NCBI GenBank assembly: GCA_030427245.1
Contig: JAUHXA010000039.1
Location: 1-63,461 of the forward strand
Length of the DNA stretch: 63,461 nucleotides
From: Bacteroidia bacterium
GTDB lineage: Bacteria > Bacteroidota > Bacteroidia > Chitinophagales > UBA2359
Direction of reading: 5' to 3'
Shown: one piece after another, positions 18,811-31,395 of the stretch
Numbering within the stretch: position 1 is the stretch's first letter
How the letters are laid out: each line of letters opens with the position of its first letter
Program-made: the position numbers and the translations under genes
Notes under the pieces: generated by a model
What the model was told of the DNA's origin: nothing
Database searches by the model: none
Seen by the model: the letters and a program-made list of their open reading frames with translations, nothing else

Positions 18811-20286
18811 ATGAAATACGATGAGGTCAAAAGTCTGATAGCCAATTCTCCTACCATCAAAATACTGCGTGCTTTCAGTGCACCACTGATAATCAGTTTC
18901 CTATATCAAGAATTTAAGCAAAAAAACCGCATTTCCATTTCAAGCTACGAACTCATCAACCGATTGGCAGATGTAATCGAACTCTTGGACAAAAGCGAAA
19001 AGTCGTTTTTGGGCATTGAAGACTCCGACCCATTGACCCTAGCACAGCGGTACATTGCGACTTGGTGCCACGAAGATAATCGCTATTTGACCCGCTATCC
19101 AGACGAAAATGGTGAACCGATTCACGAGCTTACCTCTCACACCGAAAAGGTTTTTCAGTGGATGGATACCTTGAAAAAACGGGAATTTGTGGGTACAGAA
19201 TCCCGCTTCAAAGACATCTATCGCCTCCTTCGTGAACTCATCGAAAACTCCAAAGCCGACCCCAAACAAAAAATCGCTCAATTGGAGGCGCAACGCGATG
19301 CCCTCAACCAACAAATCCGCCAAATCAAACGCTCTGGAAAAGTCGAAATTTTCAACGATACCCAAATCAAAGAACGCTTCTACAATGTCAACAAAGTCGC
19401 TCGTGAACTGCTTTCAGACTTCAAAGAGGTGGAACACAACTTCAAGGACATCACCCTCGAAATCTACAAAAAACAGACACAACTAGATGTTAACAAAGGT
19501 CAAATTTTGGGTTATGCTTTGGACGCAACGGACGAACTAAAGGACTCCGACCAAGGTAAAAGTTTCTATGCTTTTTGGCAGTTTTTGGTGGCGGACAACA
19601 AACAGGATGAACTCTTGGAATTGATTGAACAGATGTACGATTTACTCCGCCAAAGGGATATTCACTATGCCGACAACTTCCTCCGAAAAATCAAAATTTA
19701 CCTACACAGTGCGGGTCAGAAGGTCATAGACTCCAATCGTTTGTTGGCAGACAAGTTGAGTCGAATTTTGGTGGAACGGGATATTTTGGAGCGCAAAAGA
19801 GCCATTGAAGTCATCAGTGCCATCAAAAATTTTGCGATGGAACACCCCGAAAGATTCAGTGGCAAACGCAAGTTTATCCATATCGAAGACCTTCCCGACA
19901 TCAACCTACCAATGGAACGTCCATTGGGTGAAAAACCTCAAGAGGCAACTTTTCGCAATCAACCAACCGAGTTGGGCAGCGACAAATTTGAAGAGGCAGA
20001 ATTGAGCATCTTGTTTGACCAATTTGAGATGAACCGCCAAGAATTAGAGCAAAATATTGCGGACTTGTTGAAGTACCACGCCCAAGTCACTCTTTCGCAG
20101 GTAGTGGAATATTATCCAATTCAAAACGGTTTAGCGGAGGTGATTACCTATTTTTCGATTGCTTCAAAATCGGACAAGCATCTTATCAACACCGAATTGA
20201 GTGAGCAGATTTCTTGGAAACAGGAGAATGAGGAGGAGGATAATTTGAAGGAGATACGGTTGCCGCAGTTGGTGTATGTGAGGTAG
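18811..20286 (+). CDS. jetA: Wadjet defence protein JetA (DUF3375, MukF-like kleisin)
   Basis: 491 residues, starting MKYDEVKSLIANSPTIKILR. The N-terminal winged-helix region (APLIISFLYQEFKQKNRISI; ADVIELLDKSEKSFLG; TWCHEDNRYLTRYPDENGEP), the central coiled coil (QKIAQLEAQRDALNQQI) and the C-terminal region are those of DUF3375/JetA. This is the kleisin of the SMC-like Wadjet complex, which recognises and cleaves circular plasmid DNA. It is the first gene of the locus, with a candidate promoter directly upstream. In a normal operon jetB would follow immediately; here a 230-bp nuclease-tail remnant intervenes. Identification rests on family knowledge and the jetB/C/D neighbours. Confidence 0.88.
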   Translation: MKYDEVKSLIANSPTIKILRAFSAPLIISFLYQEFKQKNRISISSYELINRLADVIELLDKSEKSFLGIEDSDPLTLAQRYIATWCHEDNRYLTRYPDENGEPIHELTSHTEKVFQWMDTLKKREFVGTESRFKDIYRLLRELIENSKADPKQKIAQLEAQRDALNQQIRQIKRSGKVEIFNDTQIKERFYNVNKVARELLSDFKEVEHNFKDITLEIYKKQTQLDVNKGQILGYALDATDELKDSDQGKSFYAFWQFLVADNKQDELLELIEQMYDLLRQRDIHYADNFLRKIKIYLHSAGQKVIDSNRLLADKLSRILVERDILERKRAIEVISAIKNFAMEHPERFSGKRKFIHIEDLPDINLPMERPLGEKPQEATFRNQPTELGSDKFEEAELSILFDQFEMNRQELEQNIADLLKYHAQVTLSQVVEYYPIQNGLAEVITYFSIASKSDKHLINTELSEQISWKQENEEEDNLKEIRLPQLVYVR

Positions 20287-20519
20287 ATTTGGTTCAAAAA
20301 TTACCTAAACAACTAAATGATTTGACTATGAGTACATACGATATGATTCTTTTGGAAGGAGAGAAAAAAGGTGAGAAAAAAGGAAGAAAAGAAGCAATCA
20401 AAACAACAGTAATTCGAATGCTTCGTAAATTTCCAAAGTGGTCGAATGAAGAAATTGCAGAATTGACAGGAGCATCTATTGATTTTGTAGAGAAGATTCG
20501 AAACGGATTGAAGAAATAA
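20287..20519 (+). pseudogene. C-terminal tail of an Rpn-type (PD-(D/E)XK transposase-like) nuclease
   Basis: The frame opens right behind the jetA stop with VQKLPKQLNDLTMSTYDM, then ILLEGEKKGEKKGRKEAIK, and ends with an EEIAELTGASIDFVEKI segment. This is the typical end of Rpn/YhgA-like recombination-promoting nucleases: a lysine/glutamate/glycine hinge then a small helix-turn-helix-like unit. The catalytic domain is absent. A product could start at ATG 20328 (63 residues), but the homology-like part begins before it, so a truncated gene left between jetA and jetB is more likely. It might still be translated as a small protein. Confidence 0.6.
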
Positions 20520-20540
20520 TCTCAGGTTTACCTAATTTTG
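20508..20540 (+). promoter_or_regulatory. Candidate internal promoter for jetB
   Basis: TTG at 20508-20510 and TAATTTTG at 20533-20540 repeat the 22-base spacing and the -7 box of the jetA promoter, including similar flanking bases (CTAATTTTGC). It lies 19 bases before the likely jetB ATG. It would restore expression of jetB-CXC-jetC after the insertion behind jetA. Confidence 0.35.
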
Positions 20541-20558
20541 CGCCTCATTCACAAATCC

Positions 20559-21206
20559 ATGAACAATATGAATCCTTCAACCACAACTACCAACGCTGAA
20601 TTTGAACTCTCCAACGATTCCATTCCGCCTTACTCCATCGTGATTGTCAGATTACTACAAAGCGTCATTTACGACGAAGACCGCAAATTGTGGAATCTAC
20701 TCATTACCTACCAACACCAAATTCGCCAACACTTTGCAGTCATTGGCGTAGAACTGCACCTCAACGAACAAGAAGGATTTGCGTTTTTGAGTCAACCCGA
20801 CGAAATTGACACCGAACCGAATCAAGCTGCTCGTTTGGTGCGCCGAATGCCTTTGTCGTATGAAGTGACTTTGTTGTGCGTTATTTTGCGGGAAGCATTG
20901 GAGGAATTTGATGTGCGAAATACAGAATCCAGAAAGCTATTTGTTACGAATCAAGACCTCAAAGAGCGAATTGAACTTTTTTTCAAAGACAAAGCCGACA
21001 AAATTCGCTTGCTACAACGTTTTGACAGCTACATCAATACCGTTGCCAATTTGGGTTTTTTGAAGGAAGTGAAAGTGCGGGGTTTTGATGATGAATTGAA
21101 GACCTATGAGGTAATGCGGGTCATTAAGGCGAAGGTAAACAACGATATTTTGGAGCAAATTCGAGAGAAAATGCAGAGCGAAAAAATGAAACCAAAAACA
21201 AAATAG
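20559..21206 (+). CDS. jetB: Wadjet defence protein JetB (DUF4194, MukE-like)
   Basis: 215 residues from ATG 20559; an upstream TTG at 20538 is in frame but overlaps the promoter box. Family-typical segments are IVIVRLLQSVIYDEDRKLWN, an FAFLSQPDEID stretch, RLVRRMPLSYEVTLLCVILR and LRQRFD-like winged-helix parts (KIRLLQRFDSYINTVANLGF). JetB is the KITE subunit that pairs with the kleisin JetA and the SMC-like JetC. The CXC-protein gene begins 9 bp after its stop, indicating one transcript and probably translational coupling. Confidence 0.85.
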   Translation: MNNMNPSTTTTNAEFELSNDSIPPYSIVIVRLLQSVIYDEDRKLWNLLITYQHQIRQHFAVIGVELHLNEQEGFAFLSQPDEIDTEPNQAARLVRRMPLSYEVTLLCVILREALEEFDVRNTESRKLFVTNQDLKERIELFFKDKADKIRLLQRFDSYINTVANLGFLKEVKVRGFDDELKTYEVMRVIKAKVNNDILEQIREKMQSEKMKPKTK

Positions 21207-21215
21207 AATCAACAC

Positions 21216-21692
21216 ATGAGTACAGAATCAACAACCTGCAAGTGCAAAGGAAAATGTAAGAACAACCGTTGTGCTTGTAGAAAAAACAGACGACCCTGTT
21301 CAGACGACTGCAAATGTAAAGACTGCCAAAACCCCTACAATGGTGTGGATGTCGAAAAATTGCACGAATGTACTTTAGACAATATCGAAAAGTACAAAAG
21401 ATATTCAAAAGAAAAATTAGAGAGGAAAGTAGAACTTCCTTGTGGTTGTGAAGAAGTAGCCATTGGGGTGATGTTGGAAGGAGGTGAATATACCTGCAGT
21501 GAATGTGATGAGGATTATTACTATTCTATTTGTTGGGGAGATGTCGCACAAGACAATTGTTCTTGGCATTGCGAAATTTGTAAAACGTGTAGGGACTGGC
21601 GAGAATGGCACTGCGACAATTGCAACAAATGCACCTATGGAGTGACTTTGCCTTGTGAAAATTGTGGTGCAAGCAGTTCTATGGGCTATTGA
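21216..21692 (+). CDS. CXC-domain and zinc-finger protein embedded in the Wadjet operon
   Basis: 158 residues with 9 + about 17 cysteines. Residues 8-42 carry nine cysteines (8, 10, 14, 19, 21, 28, 32, 34, 37) followed by Q-N-P-Y. Their spacing C-x-C-x3-C-x4-C-x-C-x6-C-x3-C-x-C-x2-C-x-N matches the CXC domain of eukaryotic tesmin/LIN54 and MSL2, a Zn3Cys9 DNA-binding module. The second half ([49 protein letters not shown]) contains several CxxC knuckles resembling zinc ribbons or the CTCHY finger. Acidic, tryptophan-rich, no signal peptide. The gene is 9 bp behind jetB and 147 bp before jetC. It is not part of the known four-gene Wadjet set. Likely a DNA- or partner-binding accessory; this function is inferred. 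Confidence 0.75.
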
Positions 21693-21839
21693 TAAATCAT
21701 TTATAACTATCCAAAATATCTTGGAAAATGACAAAAGTCATATTCACACTCATTTCTGGCTTATATTTACAAACAAGCCCCACAAATAGCGTATTTTTAC
21801 GTCTTTCAAAATTTACAAACGGCAATAGTTTACTTCAGT

Positions 21840-24800
21840 ATGCACTTCAACAACAACGGCACTTCCAATAAAAAACAATCCAGCGGCTTTCGATTGGATT
21901 ATGTCGAAATCTTCAATTGGGGAACATTTGACGAACGCATTTGGCGACTCACTCCAAACTGCAAAAACTCCCTTTTGACAGGTGCCAACGGTTCAGGAAA
22001 AACAACCTTGGTAGATGCCATCATCACCCTACTTGTTCCACCCTCCAAACGCCACTACAACCAATCCTCAGGCGCAAACAGCAAGCGAGAAAGAGATGAA
22101 AGTACTTATACCTTAGGAGCTTATGTGACAGTGCAAAACGAAAACGAACTGGGCGCAAAAACCCAACACCTTCGCACCAAAGATGATTTTTCAATCCTAT
22201 TGGGTGTATTCTTCAACAAAGATACCCGCCAACATTATACTCTGGCACAAGTTCGTTGGTTTTCCAACAATTCCTTGAAGCGTGCCTATCTGATTGCGCC
22301 AAAAGCCTTGACCGTTGAAGACCATTTTACACCTTTGGATACGGCGGGAACTTGGAAGCGAATTTTGAAGAAAAAGCACAAGGCAGACGAATACGACAGC
22401 TTCACCAAGTACAGCCAAAAATTCTCAAAGCTATTTGGATTGAAGTCTGAAAAAGCATTGACGCTTTTCGCCCAAACAGTGGGAATCAAAGTATTGGGAA
22501 ATCTCAATGAGTTTATCCGCACCAATATGCTCGAAGAAAGCGACACTGAAACGGAATTTGAAAAACTCTACGCACACTACGAAAACCTGCTATCTGCTCA
22601 CAAAGCCATTGAAAAGGCAAAGGAGCAATTGAAGATGTTATCTCCCATTGTAAAAGATGGACAACAGTTTCACAAATTGGAGGACAACCTGTCGGATTTG
22701 AAGGCAATGGAAGACAGCGTTGCGCCCTATTTTGCGGAGGTGAAAGAGAAATTGTACCTCAAAGGAATTGCCCGATTAGAAGGAGATGTACAGCGAAGGG
22801 CTGCAAAAGTTGAGGAAGTGCGTGTGGAATTGGGTGCTTTGGAATTGAAGAAAGAGGAGTTGGTGATTGCGAAAGGAAAAAACCGCCTTTATACCCAACT
22901 GCAAAACATCGACAAACAGATTCAGCAGCTAGAAAATGAGCGCAATAGCCGACAACTGAAGGCAAACCGCTACAACAAACTCGCCAAAAGTCTGGGTTCT
23001 AAAAGTGACCCAACTGAAAAACAATTCTACAAAATACTGGACGAAGGCAGGTTGGAAATTGACGAATTGCAGCAGAAAATGGAGGCTTTGCGGGAAACCG
23101 AAATTGGCTATCAGGTCAATCTACAAAACCTTCAAACCGAGTTCAATGAATTGAAGGAACGATATGTTTCACTTCAAAAACGCTCGAATCGAATTCCGAT
23201 GACTTCAATAGCAATTCGTCAAAGCATCCTCAAAAAATTGGATTTGAGGGAAGCGCAATTGCCTTTTGCAGCCGAACTCCTAAAAGTACCTGAATCGGAG
23301 GCAGATTGGGAAAATGTGGTCGAATCCTTACTGAAACCCATTGGTTTGTCGCTTTTGGTATCGGAAAAATACTATGCTGATGTAACCGATTATGTCCAAA
23401 AAAACGACTTGAAAGGCAAGATTTTGTATGAGAAAGTGAGTGAAGGTTTGGGGGAAATCATGGCTCCAAAAGTCGGCAAAAACAGCATTTTGGCAAAAGT
23501 AGAAGTCAAACAAAACCACATTTTCAGCGGTTGGCTGCAAGCCTTTTTGAACCAGCACTACGACTATGTTTGCACTGCAAAAAGTGCGGACTTCAAAAGG
23601 GCAACCAAAGCGGTTACTTCTAAAGGTTTGATTCGCAACGGCTACCAACACCAAAAAGACGACCGCCCCGAAAGTCTCAACAAGGAAAATCACATTTTGG
23701 GTTGGGACAATCGGGAGACGATTCTGCGGATTCAACGCAAACTAAAGGACTTGGAGGCGGAAATGAAAAGCATCAAAGTCGCGATTCGGGAAAACAAAAA
23801 AGTGGGTGCTTCTTTTGGCAAACGACGGGATTTGTTGAACCGTTTTTGTGGCTTTGAACAGTATCCCGAAATTGACTGGAAATCCATCGTAAAAGAGATT
23901 GAACAACAGAAGAAAGAGAAGGAACGTTTGCTAAAAAGTTCTGACCAATTGAAAGAATTGGAGCAGCAACTGGAGGAGGTCAAAAAGGCAATCAAGGACA
24001 AGGAATCGCAGAAAGACCAACTGATTGAAGAAAAGGCAAAGCTGCAAAATACGCTCTCGAATTACGAGGAGGGATTGAAGGAAGCGCAGGAGTTGATTGC
24101 AGAATATGAAGACATGAGCTTCAAAAATTACCGCCAAAAATTGAAGTCTTTGATTGGCGAAAAAGCTCCTACAATTGCGACCATCAACCGCATTGAAGGT
24201 AAAGTAAAACGCACGGTGACAGGCGATAAGGAGAAATTGGAGCAGAACCGCTCTAAAAAAGAAGTGGCTTTGACCCGAAGAATGCAGCAATTTATCAATC
24301 CTCCAATGGATGTATTGGAGAAATATCCGAATTGGACGGCAGATACGGTGAATTTTCGCCCTGATGTGAGTTATTTGAAGGACTATGAAGAACTGTATCA
24401 GAAGGTGTTAGACGAGGATTTGCCGCAATACCAAAAACGCTTCAAGGATTGGCTGAACGAGCGTTTGATTTTTGACATTGCCAACTTCAAAACGGCTTTG
24501 GAGAATAAGGAATCGGGAATTTTGGACAGCATCGAACAAATCAACGATTCGCTGCGTGGAATTGACTTCAACAGCAATCCACACACTTACATTGAGTTGG
24601 ACATCCAAAAATCACGAGACATTGCCATTCGAGAGTTCAAACAGATGCTGCGGGATGCGATGCCCGACCCTGCCAAATTGATTAAGGGGGATGAACAAGA
24701 ATTGGAGTATAGTTTCCAGAAAATCAAGGTAATCATTGAAGAATTGAGTGCGAATGAATTGTGGCGCAAGAAGGTGACGGATGTACGAAATTGGTTGGAA

Positions 24801-25220
24801 TTTGCGGCGATTGAACGCTACCGAGAGGACAATGTTCAGCGTCAATATTATGCAGATTCTCAGGCTTTGTCGGGTGGTGAAAAGGCGAAATTGGCTTATA
24901 CGATTTTGGCTTCTGCGATTGCTTATCAGTTTGGGATTCGACATGAGGATGAAAGAAATCGCTCGTTTCGTTTTGCAGTTGTGGATGAGGCGTTTAGCAA
25001 GGTCGACCCCGAAAATTCGATTTATGCGATGGAGTTGTTCAAGCAGTTGAACCTGCAATTGATGGTCGTTACCCCTTTGGACAAAATCAATTTGGCTGAA
25101 CCCTATATTCATTCGGTTCATTTTGTGCAGAATAAAAACAAGCGCAATTCGGAGGTATTTGACTTGCCTATGAAGGTGTATTTGGCGGAGAAGGAGAAGA
25201 TGCGGGGGGCAGAGGAATAG
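21840..25220 (+). CDS. jetC: Wadjet defence protein JetC (SMC/MukB-like ATPase)
   Basis: 1126 residues. Walker A GANGSGKTT is at residues 48-56 after FDERIWRLTPNCKNSLLTG. Long coiled coils follow (for example around 290-420 and 680-800), separated by a hinge-like globular part (~430-620). At the C-terminus are the ABC signature LSGGEKAKL (~1010) and Walker B FAVVDEAFSKVDPENS (~1047). It drives loop extrusion and DNA testing in the Wadjet complex; JetD cuts when a small circle is detected. The motifs are intact, so the ATPase should work. The usual next gene, jetD, is displaced 5 kb downstream by a restriction-modification cassette. Confidence 0.9.
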   Translation: MHFNNNGTSNKKQSSGFRLDYVEIFNWGTFDERIWRLTPNCKNSLLTGANGSGKTTLVDAIITLLVPPSKRHYNQSSGANSKRERDESTYTLGAYVTVQNENELGAKTQHLRTKDDFSILLGVFFNKDTRQHYTLAQVRWFSNNSLKRAYLIAPKALTVEDHFTPLDTAGTWKRILKKKHKADEYDSFTKYSQKFSKLFGLKSEKALTLFAQTVGIKVLGNLNEFIRTNMLEESDTETEFEKLYAHYENLLSAHKAIEKAKEQLKMLSPIVKDGQQFHKLEDNLSDLKAMEDSVAPYFAEVKEKLYLKGIARLEGDVQRRAAKVEEVRVELGALELKKEELVIAKGKNRLYTQLQNIDKQIQQLENERNSRQLKANRYNKLAKSLGSKSDPTEKQFYKILDEGRLEIDELQQKMEALRETEIGYQVNLQNLQTEFNELKERYVSLQKRSNRIPMTSIAIRQSILKKLDLREAQLPFAAELLKVPESEADWENVVESLLKPIGLSLLVSEKYYADVTDYVQKNDLKGKILYEKVSEGLGEIMAPKVGKNSILAKVEVKQNHIFSGWLQAFLNQHYDYVCTAKSADFKRATKAVTSKGLIRNGYQHQKDDRPESLNKENHILGWDNRETILRIQRKLKDLEAEMKSIKVAIRENKKVGASFGKRRDLLNRFCGFEQYPEIDWKSIVKEIEQQKKEKERLLKSSDQLKELEQQLEEVKKAIKDKESQKDQLIEEKAKLQNTLSNYEEGLKEAQELIAEYEDMSFKNYRQKLKSLIGEKAPTIATINRIEGKVKRTVTGDKEKLEQNRSKKEVALTRRMQQFINPPMDVLEKYPNWTADTVNFRPDVSYLKDYEELYQKVLDEDLPQYQKRFKDWLNERLIFDIANFKTALENKESGILDSIEQINDSLRGIDFNSNPHTYIELDIQKSRDIAIREFKQMLRDAMPDPAKLIKGDEQELEYSFQKIKVIIEELSANELWRKKVTDVRNWLEFAAIERYREDNVQRQYYADSQALSGGEKAKLAYTILASAIAYQFGIRHEDERNRSFRFAVVDEAFSKVDPENSIYAMELFKQLNLQLMVVTPLDKINLAEPYIHSVHFVQNKNKRNSEVFDLPMKVYLAEKEKMRGAEE

Positions 25221-25295: not shown

Positions 25296-25341
25296 TTGCT
25301 ATTGATGACAGAATTCTTTACATTTGTATAAAATTCTGTCA
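25296..25341 (+). promoter_or_regulatory. Promoter and palindromic operator of the LexA-like regulator
   Basis: TTG (25296-25298), 20-base spacer, TACATTTG (25319-25326): a good Bacteroidota promoter. The perfect inverted repeat TGACAGAATT (25306-25315) / AATTCTGTCA (25332-25341) brackets the -7 box and abuts the ATG at 25342. A repressor bound here would block the promoter, and the transcript must be nearly leaderless. Strong sign of autoregulation. Confidence 0.65.
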
Positions 25342-26115
25342 ATGCTTAGTTCAAATTTAAAATATTTGAGAACAAAAAATAAGCGAACTCAAGATGATAT
25401 TGCAAAAGTATTAGGAGTTAGCCGCATGACTTATGCCAATTATGAAAAAGCAAAATCGGAATTACCATCAAGCCTCTTACTAAAAATTGCTCAATACTAT
25501 AAGGTCACTACTGATGCTTTGCTGACAAAAGATATTGGTGCGCCACTATTTCGCAAAAGACCTGAAAAAGCGGATAATATATTATCAGATAATATTCGGA
25601 TATTACCAATAACAATAGCTCCAAATCAAAAAAATAATATTGAATTTGTCTCTGCTAAGGCTGTCGCAGGATATATCTCGGAAATGAGAGAGGCAACTTA
25701 TGTCTCAGAACTACCTCGTTTCTATTTACCCAACCTACCTGAAGGAAATTATCGTGCTTTTGAGATTGAAGGAGAATCTATGCTTCCTATTCAAAGCGGT
25801 TATATTGTAGTTGGAAGATTTGTAGAACATGCGAGAGATTTGAAAAATGGAAAGCGTTATATAGTAGCAGTAAGAAATAAAGGAGTAGTTTTTAAAAAGA
25901 TAATCAGTGAAATAGATAAAAATAAGTTGCTACTTTTGGCTTCTGATAATTCAGAGTTTATGCCTTATACCGTAAATGCAAAAGACGTTTTAGAGGCTTG
26001 GGAAATGGTTGCTTTTATTGGATTTCCTGATAAAATTGACATGAATTATATTTTACTGGACAAATTACATGACATTCAGCAACAAATAGTATTACTAAAC
26101 GCTGTTAAAGCTTGA
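25342..26115 (+). CDS. XRE-HTH / S24 peptidase (LexA-like) regulator of the restriction-modification cassette
   Basis: 257 residues from ATG 25342 (an earlier ATG at 25324 lies inside the promoter). Residues 1-65 are a Cro/C1 helix-turn-helix (KRTQDDIAKVLGVSRMTYAN). The C-terminal half is an S24 peptidase-like domain: cleavage-type Ala-Gly at 109-110 (KAVAGYISE), catalytic Ser 146 in EGESMLPI and Lys at 185/186 in VVFKKII. Such proteins can be inactivated by self-cleavage after DNA damage. A 36-bp palindrome overlaps the promoter. The stop lies 8 bp before the methyltransferase ATG, so it is co-transcribed with the R-M genes and could time their expression as control proteins do (inference). 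Confidence 0.82.
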   Translation: MLSSNLKYLRTKNKRTQDDIAKVLGVSRMTYANYEKAKSELPSSLLLKIAQYYKVTTDALLTKDIGAPLFRKRPEKADNILSDNIRILPITIAPNQKNNIEFVSAKAVAGYISEMREATYVSELPRFYLPNLPEGNYRAFEIEGESMLPIQSGYIVVGRFVEHARDLKNGKRYIVAVRNKGVVFKKIISEIDKNKLLLLASDNSEFMPYTVNAKDVLEAWEMVAFIGFPDKIDMNYILLDKLHDIQQQIVLLNAVKA

Positions 26116-26123
26116 TAAATACC

Positions 26124-29100
26124 ATGAAAAACAACTTTCTTCATAAACTGGGATATACCACACAAACTGGGCTTGTTCATAATTTGAACGAAGCCCAAAA
26201 TAATGTGGAACGCCTATACATTGAGGAAGCCCAAAAACTAAATACTTCTGCCAATGCCGTCTTTTTTAGGCGTTATTATAAAGAGGAGGAAGAAGAAGAA
26301 GAAAAAGAAAACATTGAAGTATTACCCTATTTCTCAGTTCCTTCCGTTTGTATTTTTAAGCAAAATGATTCTTTTTTTAATACACAGCCACACAAGGAAC
26401 TACATGCCGCCCTTTGGAGTGCAGGAAAAATTGATATATACATAATTTATGGGGAAACTCGAATTGATATCATCAATGCTAGAAAACCTGCTAAACGAGT
26501 TGGAAACGATAATGTGACATTAGACCATGAGGATTTGACTTTAATTGAACCTCAAACTGCATTAAAAGAATTTGAAGATGCCCGATTTGCAGCACATCTT
26601 TTTGGAAGTGGTACATTTTGGGAACAATCTGATTTTCAAGAAAGGATTGATGGGAATAGTCAGCCTTATGCTTTTTTATTGGATTATTTGATGGCAGTAA
26701 GAAAGCAACTCATAGAAATGAAAGCATGGAAACTAAAAGCGATAACAGTTGATAAGTTGCTGATTACTTCTATTTTAATCAAGTTCTTAGAAGAAATAAA
26801 ATACAAAGATGAAAATGATAATAAGTACAAACATACTCTAAGCGAAATTTACAAAAAGTATGGTATAGAAACTTTTGAAGAAGGGCTTTTAAAGGAAGGA
26901 GTTTGCTTGAATATTTTGGAAGATTTATCAAGAGAATTTAATGGAAAAGTCTTCAATACTTTTGAAGAAGAAGAATTGACTGAAATTGATAAAGCCGATT
27001 TAACTCCAATTGCAAAGTTTCTACGTGCAGATATTGATGTCAGAACCACTCAAGGTTTTATTTGGAAGCAATACAGTTTCAAGCATTTACCCGCAGAAGT
27101 TATTAGTGCAATATATGAAAATTTTATTCAAGCAGAGGCAGAACGAAAAGGAGAAAAGAAGAAAGGCGTTGTTTACACTCCTTTACACTTGGTGAACTTA
27201 TTGGTTGATGAGGTTATGCCTTTAGACCAACCTGAGTTATTTAAAAATAATAGATTTAGAGTTTTAGACCCTGCATGTGGTTCGGGTGTATTTTTGGTGG
27301 CTGCTTATAAAAGAATGTTGCAATGGTGGACAATCAACAATTGGAAGGAAACTGGTAAAATTGAATATCCTGATAAAATTATTGCAAAAGAAATTTTAGA
27401 AGAAAACATTTTTGGAGTAGATATTGAAAAGGTTGCAGCCTTAGTGAGTATTTTTGGACTAACTACTGCTTTTTTGGAGAAGTTGAAACCAACAGAAATT
27501 TGGAATAATCTGAAATTTAAAGATTTAAGCAAAGAAAATATTCACGGAATTAATTTTATTGATTGGGCAAAGACCAATAAAGAGGAAAAAGGAAAATTTG
27601 ATTTGGTTATTGGAAACCCTCCTTTCAATCCTTCTGAAAACGGTACAATTACGAATGAAGATTTGAAGGAGTTATGTGGAAAAAAAGTACCTAGAAATAA
27701 ATTGGCTCTTAAATTTCTTGCGGCTGCTTTATTATTTGGTCAAAAAGTGTGTATGATTATTCCCTCGAATGTGTTTTTATACAACAAGGAGAACTCTTCC
27801 CATGAATATCGAAAAGAAATTTTTACAAAATATACTATCGAGAAAATTTATGATTTTACTCACCTAAGAGAATCTCTGTTTGTTAAACAGCACAAGAAAG
27901 GTACTCCAGCTAAAAAGAAAACAGGAAGAACCCCTGTTGTAGCACTTTTAGTTAATAATCAACCTTCCAATCATCAATCTATTACTCACATAGTAGTGAA
28001 ACGAGAATCTCTTAGTGAGCAAAAAATGCGATTTGAAATTGATTATTACGATAAACATAAGATTCGTTGGGATTGGGCAATTGATGAAAAAAAGCATTTT
28101 ATTTGGAAATCAAATTTATTAGGTGGAGGAAGGTTATTTCATTTGATTTATAGGTTGAGTTTATTTGAAACCTTAAAAGAATTTATTGAAAAAAAGAAAA
28201 AGGAAAATCCTGAATGGTTATATAGCTCAGGATATAAGATTGGAGGAGAAAATACAAAGAAATTTTCTGCGAATTATATTCATTTAAAACCTACAATCTG
28301 TACAAAACCAAAGTTTGATGAGCTTAATAACAGTTTCTTTACTAAAACGGAAACGGCAAAAGAGTTTGAGGCTCCTCGACCTGAAAGTTTATATAATCCA
28401 CCTCTACTTATACTTTCAGAAGTATTAGGTGCAACAAAAATACCTATGCAATTATTCAAAACAAAACAAATTTTTAATATTAGTTTTGTAGGTATATCTG
28501 CTCCTAAAAAAGAAGAAAAAGAATTGTATGAAATATATGAAAGGCTTTATAAAAATGAAGAAACATCTAATCTATATAGAACTTTCATATTGGCAAATAG
28601 CCCAAAAGCATTAGTATATCATGAAACATCTATTATTAAAAAAGACATTGATAACTTACCTTATCCTCACGATAAAAAATATTTGAATGTATCTAAGGAG
28701 GAAGCCATTATTATTAGTGATGTGGTAAATTCTTATCATCATCTTGGCAAAGCTATCAGCAAAAACAGTGACGGACACATACTACATACTCTAATCACTC
28801 CAAAAGAATTACAAGAGTTTGGAAACGTTTACTGTAATACCTTAAATGACGTATACGAAGAAGGTGGAAACTCATGGCAAGTAGGAGAAATTCTTAATAC
28901 ACCAACATTTATCAGCTATCAGTTTGGATTTGGAAAAAAGGGTGGTTTGAAAAGTGATTTTATGGAAGGCTCTGAATTAGATTTACATATCTTACTTAAT
29001 AATCTTGCCTCGAATCAAGGAGCAATTCACAGAAGGATTGTCCACAAATATCAACATATAGACGGATACGATTGTGTGTTCTTAATCAAACCTAAAAATA

Positions 29101-29177
29101 GACGTTATTGGCTTCAATCTATTGCATTAAGAGATGCAGACGACACATTTATGTATTTGAAAAAAGCTGGCTACTGA
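26124..29177 (+). CDS. N6-adenine DNA methyltransferase (Eco57I-like class) of a restriction-modification system
   Basis: 1017 residues from ATG 26124. An unusual acidic run (EEEEEEEKEN) occurs near residue 55. The AdoMet site VLDPACGSGVFLVAAY is at about 380 and the catalytic motif IV DLVIGNPPFNPS at about 493: an N6-adenine methyltransferase of the D-(X)-P-P-F class. The C-terminal ~450 residues probably contain target recognition. I see no N-terminal nuclease motif, so cleavage should come from the next gene. The stop is followed 2 bases later by the nuclease ATG. The DNA is visibly more AT-rich than the Wadjet genes on either side, pointing to separate acquisition. Confidence 0.82.
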   Translation: MKNNFLHKLGYTTQTGLVHNLNEAQNNVERLYIEEAQKLNTSANAVFFRRYYKEEEEEEEKENIEVLPYFSVPSVCIFKQNDSFFNTQPHKELHAALWSAGKIDIYIIYGETRIDIINARKPAKRVGNDNVTLDHEDLTLIEPQTALKEFEDARFAAHLFGSGTFWEQSDFQERIDGNSQPYAFLLDYLMAVRKQLIEMKAWKLKAITVDKLLITSILIKFLEEIKYKDENDNKYKHTLSEIYKKYGIETFEEGLLKEGVCLNILEDLSREFNGKVFNTFEEEELTEIDKADLTPIAKFLRADIDVRTTQGFIWKQYSFKHLPAEVISAIYENFIQAEAERKGEKKKGVVYTPLHLVNLLVDEVMPLDQPELFKNNRFRVLDPACGSGVFLVAAYKRMLQWWTINNWKETGKIEYPDKIIAKEILEENIFGVDIEKVAALVSIFGLTTAFLEKLKPTEIWNNLKFKDLSKENIHGINFIDWAKTNKEEKGKFDLVIGNPPFNPSENGTITNEDLKELCGKKVPRNKLALKFLAAALLFGQKVCMIIPSNVFLYNKENSSHEYRKEIFTKYTIEKIYDFTHLRESLFVKQHKKGTPAKKKTGRTPVVALLVNNQPSNHQSITHIVVKRESLSEQKMRFEIDYYDKHKIRWDWAIDEKKHFIWKSNLLGGGRLFHLIYRLSLFETLKEFIEKKKKENPEWLYSSGYKIGGENTKKFSANYIHLKPTICTKPKFDELNNSFFTKTETAKEFEAPRPESLYNPPLLILSEVLGATKIPMQLFKTKQIFNISFVGISAPKKEEKELYEIYERLYKNEETSNLYRTFILANSPKALVYHETSIIKKDIDNLPYPHDKKYLNVSKEEAIIISDVVNSYHHLGKAISKNSDGHILHTLITPKELQEFGNVYCNTLNDVYEEGGNSWQVGEILNTPTFISYQFGFGKKGGLKSDFMEGSELDLHILLNNLASNQGAIHRRIVHKYQHIDGYDCVFLIKPKNRRYWLQSIALRDADDTFMYLKKAGY

Positions 29178-29179
29178 CT

Positions 29180-29839
29180 ATGAGTACATTTAAATTTAAG
29201 AATATTTCTCCTAAGAAATCCTCTGATGAAAAGGATTTAATTGAGTTGGTAGAAGAGTTAACACGGCTGATTTCAAACTTTGTTGGTTCGTCAATTTTTA
29301 AACGGGATATTTTCGATAAGTCAGACGAAGACCATTATACAGAAACTCTCATTAAATATTTAGAAAATGAGAACACAGGAAGTCGTTTTTCCTTCAAACA
29401 ACAAGCTTCTCTACCTAAGAGAAGGTCGACCGATATTGGAGTACACTTAAAAGCGGATAGTGAGCATTATATTTTTTGCATTGAAGCTAAGTTTTTACCT
29501 CCAAAAGATTATGTAACAGGAGGTTACGCTGCAATAAAGAGGTTCAAAAAGAGAGAACATGGAATAAGTAATCGCAATCCTAAAAAAGCGAAAAACTTAC
29601 CCGAAAGTGCAATTATTGGGTATTCTAAATCGGGAACATTTAATGGTCATTTCAATGCCATTAATACTAAAGTACAATCTCTTTCAAGTAGTAAGGTAGC
29701 TGATAAATTTGGAATAGTTTGGAAAATGTCAGAACAACTTCAGCAAGTCAATATGAATAAAATAGCTGTTTTATTTTCCAATCATTCTTGCACGGATAAA
29801 TCTGAAATCAAATTACATCATTTTTGGGTTAAAGTTTAG
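29180..29839 (+). CDS. PD-(D/E)XK nuclease, putative restriction subunit
   Basis: 219 residues from ATG 29180, two bases after the methyltransferase stop. The core motif is T-D85-I-G-V ... F-C-I-E102-A-K104, a textbook PD-(D/E)XK active site. The N-terminus (DLIELVEELTRLISNF) is helical, and DHYTETLIKYLENENTGSRF lies before the catalytic strand. It is most likely the restriction endonuclease partner of the methyltransferase. Its last codon overlaps the end of a convergent gene remnant. I do not recognise a named REase family; target sequence unknown. Confidence 0.7.
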   Translation: MSTFKFKNISPKKSSDEKDLIELVEELTRLISNFVGSSIFKRDIFDKSDEDHYTETLIKYLENENTGSRFSFKQQASLPKRRSTDIGVHLKADSEHYIFCIEAKFLPPKDYVTGGYAAIKRFKKREHGISNRNPKKAKNLPESAIIGYSKSGTFNGHFNAINTKVQSLSSSKVADKFGIVWKMSEQLQQVNMNKIAVLFSNHSCTDKSEIKLHHFWVKV

Positions 29840-30243: not shown

Positions 30244-31395
30244 ATGCTCACCCCCCAACAAATCCAAAAAAAAGCCCTCCGCCTCTATCCCGATGTACTC
30301 ATTGCAGCCATGCAAAGCGAAAACATATTCCCTTTGGACATCAAGGGCAGCAAAGGACGAAGCACCATGCCTTTGAGTCAATTGTTTCCAGCCCTTCAAA
30401 AACTGTTGAAAGGCGGCAAAGGAATGTTGGGGTATGGCTATCGAGTCGAATTGAAGGAGGTGAATACCCATCATGCAGGCGTTCAATCCATGCCTAAACG
30501 GATTTACTTTGAAACACAAGCAGATTATTTGAAGTTTTTGAAGAAGGGGCAGGAATTTGTGGAGTTTCAAGAAGTATATGCTTTTACACTTCAATCTTTG
30601 CCGCAATTGAAGGAATGGCTATTGGCGAACCCTTTGAAGGTGGTGAAATATCGAGGAGTTTGGCGAAACTTATTGAAGGTCTGTCACTATTTTATCCAAC
30701 ATCCTCAGCCCAATTTGTACATCCGTCAATTGCCAATTGAAGTACATACCAAGTTTACCGAGCAGCATACAGGGATTTTGAAAGACTTGTTGGATGAGGT
30801 TTTGGAGGAATGGATGATTCGGTATCATACAAAGCGGTTTGAAGAACGCTATTATTTGAAGTACGATGAGCCTACTATTCGGCTGCGGATTTTGGATGCT
30901 GCCATGACCCCTGCTTTTCCTGATTATGTGACAGATGTGGGCTTGCCTTTGAGCGAATTGCAGCAATTGGAGACCTTTGCCTATCGGGTGTTTATTGTCG
31001 AAAACAAACAGACTTTTTTGGCTTTTCCGAAAGTACCGAACAGCTTGATTATCTGGGGAAAAGGCTTTGGAGTGGAGTTGTTGAAGGAAGTGCTTTGGTT
31101 GCAGCAGAAGGACATCATTTATTGGGGCGACATGGATGTGCAAGGCTTTCAAATTTTGTCGCAGTTGCGGGCTTATTTTCCGCAGACAGAATCACTGTTG
31201 ATGGATATAGCGACTTTTGAAGCCTTTGCAGAATTTGCAGTGAAAGGCAAAATGTCGAGGGTGAAGAATTTGGCGAATTTGACCGAAGCAGAGCAATCGA
31301 TGTTTGATTTTTTGCAGGAAACGGAAGTGGATAGATTGGAACAAGAAAGGGTGACACATGCTTATTTGTTGGAGAGATTGCAGGCATATTTGTAA
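30244..31395 (+). CDS. jetD: Wadjet defence nuclease JetD (DUF3322-DUF2220, toprim fold)
   Basis: 383 residues. The N-terminal DUF3322-like part has PLDIKGSKGRSTMPLSQLFP and YGYRVELKEVNTHHAGVQSM; the C-terminal DUF2220 toprim part has FIVENKQTFLAFP (catalytic Glu region) and IIYWGDMDVQGFQILSQLR with the metal-binding D-x-D at about 294. JetD is the topoisomerase VI-like subunit that cleaves plasmid DNA once JetABC has measured it. It is intact but sits 5 kb from jetC and presumably has its own promoter. A weak -7 box TAATTTTG is at 30192-30199 without a well-placed -33 element. It ends before a bidirectional terminator. Confidence 0.88.
   Translation: MLTPQQIQKKALRLYPDVLIAAMQSENIFPLDIKGSKGRSTMPLSQLFPALQKLLKGGKGMLGYGYRVELKEVNTHHAGVQSMPKRIYFETQADYLKFLKKGQEFVEFQEVYAFTLQSLPQLKEWLLANPLKVVKYRGVWRNLLKVCHYFIQHPQPNLYIRQLPIEVHTKFTEQHTGILKDLLDEVLEEWMIRYHTKRFEERYYLKYDEPTIRLRILDAAMTPAFPDYVTDVGLPLSELQQLETFAYRVFIVENKQTFLAFPKVPNSLIIWGKGFGVELLKEVLWLQQKDIIYWGDMDVQGFQILSQLRAYFPQTESLLMDIATFEAFAEFAVKGKMSRVKNLANLTEAEQSMFDFLQETEVDRLEQERVTHAYLLERLQAYL

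Follow-up and report, generated by a model that had tools for sequence, protein, structure and literature searches.

The gene cxc, which lies inside a type I Wadjet (JetABCD) operon of the window (the whole 63,461-nucleotide stretch of DNA analyzed here), encodes a prokaryotic variant of the CXC domain family whose C-terminal half is unusual. From sequence comparison, we tentatively propose, with slightly less than even confidence, that its product is a portable, horizontally spread zinc-type protein that binds DNA, serves as an adaptor or regulator in the operons where its gene has settled, and is not a subunit of Wadjet.

The cxc gene is a 158-amino acid open reading frame with an ATG start on the forward strand (21216–21692), and the existence of 17 further full-length copies identifies it as a genuine gene. 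It starts 9 bp behind the end of jetB (21206), and 147 bp separate its stop from the start of jetC (21840), so that the placement given in the initial annotation, 9 bp behind jetB and followed by jetC, is borne out by the coordinates. The operon and the parts of the predicted protein are arranged as follows.

18811–20286, + strand: jetA (DUF3375, kleisin); Pfam E 1.8e-99, PADLOC E 8.4e-142
20289–20519, + strand: 76-amino acid ORF between jetA and jetB; ORF reading
20538–21206, + strand: jetB (DUF4194, KITE); Pfam E 9.8e-37, PADLOC E 1.8e-56
21216–21692, + strand: cxc, predicted 158-amino acid CXC zinc-type protein; ORF, 17 other full-length members
21237–21332, + strand: predicted CXC domain, residues 8–39, with nine Cys, Arg18, and Asn39; consensus test 17/17, Pfam TCR/MSL2-CXC, LIN54/MSL2 in PDB
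21495–21665, + strand: C-terminal cysteine-rich half, residues 94–150; Cys positions invariant 17/17, weak RCHY1 match
21693–21839, + strand: gap between cxc and jetC, 147 bp, GC 0.29; sequence reading
21840–25220, + strand: jetC (SMC); PADLOC 1125 bits, residues 5–1122
25324–26115, + strand: XRE-S24 regulator, GC 0.33; Pfam HTH_3 and Peptidase_S24
26112–29177, + strand: type IIG restriction-methylase, GC 0.32; Pfam Eco57I, PADLOC E 1.3e-32
29108–29839, + strand: 243-amino acid ORF, family unassigned; ORF call
30244–31395, + strand: jetD (DUF3322 and JetD_C); Pfam E 2e-46, PADLOC E 5.3e-138

The jetA, jetB, and jetC products match PADLOC and Pfam models almost end to end. The jetD gene was located with PF09983; PF09664 is the wrong model for JetD and had zero matches in the genome and in the controls. 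The XRE-S24 regulator, the type IIG restriction-methylase, and the 243-amino acid ORF set jetD apart from jetC, an arrangement on which the initial annotation was silent. GC3 is 0.48–0.52 in the four jet genes, 0.37 in cxc, and 0.22–0.25 in the XRE and restriction genes. Because GC3 differs among these three sets, the Wadjet operon is a mosaic, interrupted by cxc and by a low-GC type IIG restriction cassette. The base composition of cxc itself differs from that of the surrounding genes, which, over 158 codons, is suggestive only. Judged by its proteins, the host would belong to the Bacteroidota.

The restriction cassette (25324–29839; XRE-S24 regulator and type IIG enzyme, GC 0.32) is nested in the jetC/jetD interval of the Wadjet operon. 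Its type IIG enzyme also matches PglX models, albeit less well (E 3.1e-11 versus 1.3e-32). The ORF at 29108–29839, with zero Pfam or PADLOC matches, is possibly a further component of the cassette. The 76-amino acid ORF (20289–20519) matched nothing in Pfam over the cut-off, and tblastn against the family loci and the relatives' loci gave nothing at E <0.3 outside the window. By eye only, with no tool support, its end resembles the C terminus of an Rpn-type gene, and a gene with a similar tail lies immediately upstream of jetA in the related genome G002 (L082:1521–2513).

Promoter and terminator scans over the operon gave results at chance level. At that level, the 147-bp gap contains a promoter-like match (9/12 at 21689–21717) and no listed terminator-like site; the gap could hold a promoter ahead of jetC, which would tell against a shared transcript. 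A search for inverted repeats over 20280–21900 returned three short pairs.

The assignment of residues 8–39 to the CXC family starts from the cysteines. Nine of them occupy residues 8, 10, 14, 19, 21, 28, 32, 34, and 37, followed by Asn39. According to the available portion of PMC3447885, the consensus of the CXC superfamily has as its signature an asparagine two residues past the ninth cysteine. All 17 rows of our family alignment (A2) show the published spacing (nine cysteines, or a histidine at position 2), and Asn39 is likewise invariant in 17/17, in agreement with the nine-cysteine spacing that the initial annotation had noticed. A tight version of the pattern, drawn up after the family had been inspected, matched 17/17 rows; when the residues of the cxc protein were shuffled 200,000 times, it matched none of the products, and the loose published consensus by itself matched 1,390. 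Across bacteria and archaea, 41 alignment columns are invariant. The broken or partial copies G582 (one stop), G912, and G1437 and the second copies in G910 and G529 were excluded from both A2 and the tree, and the copy from G1510, found after A2 had been built, entered the tree only.

Profile searches point in the same direction. At E ≤1, the Pfam family TCR matched 17/17 members and MSL2-CXC 15/17, with best E values of 6.3e-5 and 1e-4, and the cxc protein itself scored below both curated cut-offs (TCR, 16.9 versus 23.5 bits; MSL2-CXC, 16.6 versus 26.7 bits). A profile search of the PDB ranked LIN54 (E 0.004) ahead of RCHY1 (E 0.03, C-terminal half) and MSL2 (E 0.041). NCBIfam gave zero families for the three members searched, and PHROGs gave a single match at E 0.12.

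AlphaFold2 modeling reached a pLDDT of 55 with 9 rows and 71 with 17 rows. The mean per block is 75–92 over residues 11–110, and residues 139–158 fall below 50. Foldseek alone returned nothing at E ≤0.001 and placed LIN54 at rank 40 (E 6.4). In a structural second look, confined to Foldseek's list, LIN54 and two MSL2 CXC entries came out on top over 35–42 residues, with model residues 6–59 aligning on 5fd3 (Z 2.7) and residues 8–48 on 4rkh (Z 2.5). Of the CXC fold that the initial annotation had postulated, the consensus, Pfam, and the PDB profile are thus in favor, whereas the scores under the curated cut-offs and structural Z values of 2.4–2.7 remain weak. A metallothionein-like coil is opposed by the fixed CXC order, the invariant non-cysteine residues, and the pLDDT over residues 11–110. 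Taken singly, these lines are weak; they are mutually consistent and support the predicted CXC identity of residues 8–39.

The CXC domain is described as the DNA-targeting part of eukaryotic complexes in the portions of PMC3447885 and PMC4974476 available. The CXC domain of MSL2 (PF16682; PDB codes 2lua, 4rkh, and 4rkg) shares with the cxc protein the nine cysteines, the asparagine two residues past the ninth cysteine, an arginine before the fourth cysteine, and the presence of a single CXC domain, but MSL2 is eukaryotic and belongs to the Drosophila dosage compensation complex, according to the same portion of PMC3447885. The Tesmin/TSO1/LIN54 domain (PF03638; PDB code 5fd3) is the best match in both the PDB profile search and the structural second look. 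It differs in that LIN54 carries the CXC domain twice and uses a tyrosine for DNA reading, as stated in the accessible text of PMC4974476, whereas the cxc protein has one copy and an arginine.

This arginine, Arg18, directly precedes the fourth cysteine and is invariant in 17/17. In the PDB profile alignment, it falls in register with the minor-groove tyrosine of LIN54 and with a conserved exposed arginine of MSL2, which in our own register would be Arg543. In the part of PMC4974476 available, MSL2 is described as inserting an arginine into the minor groove, and LIN54 with its tyrosine replaced by arginine as showing no DNA binding. Because arginine fails to replace tyrosine in LIN54, the arginine-reading route depends on MSL2 alone. 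DNA binding by the cxc protein is a reasoned expectation by analogy, with Arg18 most likely making an MSL2-like minor-groove contact.

The C-terminal half of the protein has a different character. Residues 94–150 follow the order CxxC ... HCxxCxxC ... HCxxCxxC ... CxxC, and the cysteine positions are invariant in 17/17. The conserved cysteines favor the zinc knuckles proposed for this half in the initial annotation; the likeness to RCHY1 is faint (PDB hmmsearch, E 0.03). The CHY zinc finger of RCHY1 (Pirh2; PDB codes 2dkt and 2k2c) contains HCxxCxxC pairs as well, but the Pfam CHY and CTCHY families are absent from those matched by any of the 17 members at E ≤1. Both MSL2 and RCHY1 are E3 ligases, RCHY1 appears in the PDB profile search, and the ubiquitin-binding NZF of TAB2 is among the structural matches, so that a member of a ubiquitin-like or E3-type pathway could be envisaged. 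Such a role seems exceedingly improbable to us, given the weak scores and the location of the matched residues 111–142 in a low-confidence part of the model. The C-terminal half would most likely serve in docking on a partner protein.

The initial annotation had taken cxc for a fifth Wadjet gene, that is, a dedicated subunit that could direct how JetABC is loaded or serve to mark self DNA. The position of the gene, 9 bp behind jetB and ahead of jetC, speaks for this idea. Wadjet requires all four of its subunits, according to the part available of a review (PMC10586767). We found jetB in 20 of the 198 genomes searched around the window (its own genome counted) and examined 20 of the 21 further jetB places, each over ≤14.5 kb and less at contig ends; the excluded place, in G1465, is weak and broken. 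The cxc gene occurred at none of these 20 relatives' jetB loci. A jetC gene was present at 19 of the 20 (all except L079), and jetB and jetC overlap there or are ≤20 bp apart, compared with 633 bp in the window. We recognized jetD at 14 of the 20 loci, straight after jetC or ≤ ∼370 bp away, and none of these 14 has a cassette-like insertion between jetC and jetD as in the window. Five loci (L083, L085, L088, L089, and L090) carry jetABC with no recognized adjoining jetD, for which the query was perhaps too distant.

Conversely, no jet gene was found at any of the 16 other family loci, with 6.6–19.9 kb examined per locus. In the relative G002, cxc and jetB are both present on separate contigs of a fragmented assembly. 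These counts largely refute a dedicated fifth subunit, which we now regard as very unlikely. Among the titles listed in literature searches on Wadjet and BREX-Wadjet accessory genes, none concerned a gene of this kind.

The absence of jet genes from the 16 other family loci instead indicates that cxc is stand-alone in nature. In the tree, it joins the solo copy of G010 (support 100/97) and next the solo copy of G002 (90/88); the bootstrap of this tree had not settled, and 8 of its 15 inner branches are open. The four neighbors of the G010 copy, the nearest by tree, match no PADLOC model at 1e-15. Because relatives have jetB and jetC ≤20 bp apart as opposed to 633 bp, GC3 is 0.37 as opposed to 0.48–0.52, and the nearest relative is solo, an insertion into the operon is suggested. 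The simplest history is that a stand-alone gene of a bacterial family landed in the Wadjet operon, where it would have entered an already complete operon between jetB and jetC.

The family is spread over bacteria of several phyla and Methanosarcinaceae-type archaea, with members 50–65% identical to the cxc protein. It comprises 18 full-length copies at 17 loci, the window included, five of the loci coming from a single scan of a species-genome collection with a reach of close relatives only. The family is rare, occurring in 3/149 genomes around the window and in 1/395 in its phylum. Around other search centers, it was found in 3/249, 10/199, 1/246, 2/233, 2/171, and 1/148 genomes, counts that include broken copies and the center genomes themselves. 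No mobile carrier is known from the records searched: neither a single protein nor an alignment retrieved a relative from viral contigs, and the L005 protein retrieved none from phage or plasmid records.

The bacterial copies have diverse neighbors, named by eye except where called by Pfam. In a planctomycete (L009), the copy adjoins hsdR of a type I restriction system, and in a member of the phylum Chloroflexota (L096), it lies two genes past an AriA-like ATPase. The copy of L034 is downstream of a livF-like gene (the liv name being by eye), and that of a gutless-worm symbiont (L005) follows DUF4160/DUF2442. An anaerolinean (L008, 929–2137) has a tandem cxc pair flanked by two hydrogenase maturation genes, one hypB-like and one hypC-like, again named by eye. 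The second copy of this pair overlaps the start of hypC. The copies in G010 and G002 are solo.

This variety suits a zinc-handling or housekeeping DNA-binding protein that is functionally untied to its neighbors and is sited wherever operons tolerate it. The solo copies of G010 and G002, the copies behind livF and behind DUF4160/DUF2442, the pair flanked by hypB and hypC, and the five broken or partial copies all agree with unlinked cargo of this kind. It is nevertheless an unlikely account, in our estimation, as the 41 columns invariant in bacteria and archaea point to a precise job, and BREX linkage at 6/9 archaeal loci is at odds with indifferent siting.

The archaeal loci (L006, L007, and L036–L042) are the most uniform. 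Two are named Methanosarcinaceae, one of these two being ANME-3 by isolate name, and the other seven come from relatives of that genome and are archaeal by inference. In six of the nine, cxc is followed by pglZ and brxL, with 2–3 bp between cxc and pglZ in five loci and an overlap in one. PADLOC identified PglZ and BrxL in L007, and in L042 it recognized BrxB together with PglX-like genes; the other four loci were recognized by tblastn with the L007 proteins. At L042:5548–7440, a single ORF combines a BrxC-like N terminus with PglX-like pieces, perhaps as a fusion by deletion. We found no paper on BREX in ANME. The homologues are thus not linked to jet genes (0/16), nor are they simply placed at random, as the archaeal copies sit inside BREX operons, between a gene for a ∼120-amino acid protein and pglZ-brxL. 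The copy in the window differs in not being beside BREX genes, and a scan of 10 proteins of the window brought no BREX gene to the fore.

The gene for the ∼120-amino acid protein precedes cxc in all nine archaeal loci (eight full or near-full and a 64-residue match in L006). It is kept beside cxc also in L037 and L039, both of which are without pglZ. By eye, its product resembles a helix-turn-helix joined to a coiled coil; the two such proteins scanned gave no Pfam family over the cut-off. This constant companion, together with the role of the CXC domains of LIN54 and MSL2 as DNA-targeting modules, raises the possibility of a transcriptional autoregulator, a protein that binds the promoter of its own operon and thereby adjusts how much of an expensive nuclease system is made, while leaving the defence proteins untouched. 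We consider this somewhat unlikely. The mid-cluster position of cxc, both in the window and at the BREX loci of archaea, is awkward for such a regulator, the restriction cassette in the window already carries an XRE-S24 regulator, and the two scanned companions matched no Pfam family over the cut-off.

We also scored the neighborhoods of family loci for defence genes, treating the nine archaeal loci as one context. A PADLOC defence gene at 1e-15 lay within two genes in four of nine contexts (the window, the archaea, L009, and L096). The five contexts scored negative have 17 neighbors with one match among them, mad3 at 7e-26, which is the livF-like ABC ATPase of L034; we did not count it as defence, and counting it would give 5/9. 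In the control, 20 loci with 79 neighbors, about one locus was positive, read as one: neighbors matched 30 PADLOC families at 1e-15, of which the 25 listed were each found in one member and were nearly all of the GajB/UvrD helicase type, and the 5 remaining families might stem from another protein. Contig positions of the control stretches were hand-picked before reading, and L111, L114, L116, L117, and L118 share contigs with family loci. The comparison of 4/9 with ∼1/20 gives a one-sided Fisher p of 0.022 in a small sample in which the family loci were scored non-blind, so that the defence link of the family is a lead. Five of the nine contexts lack a credible defence gene at that distance, so the data do not demand a role in defence.

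We return to the reading of cxc as a portable adaptor or regulator. Its CXC domain would hold three zincs on nine cysteines, and the gene would probably be carried on the same transcript as the jet genes. The protein would then most likely sit on DNA and serve whichever operon carries it as an adaptor or regulator, and Wadjet, BREX, and restriction operons would be among the frequent homes of the family. In a bolder variant, defence machines that are unrelated to one another (the Wadjet SMC motor, BREX, and restriction) would share the CXC protein as a plug-in, in bacteria and archaea alike, and it would help them to tell or reach their target DNA; we judge this quite unlikely.

A literature search by title and abstract opening, with most subscription journals outside its coverage, found no paper on bacterial or prokaryotic CXC proteins. 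A compact and highly conserved prokaryotic CXC protein would make the domain easy to study in a simple setting, and its occurrence in archaeal BREX operons and one Wadjet operon could reveal a DNA-targeting accessory that is common to different defence systems.
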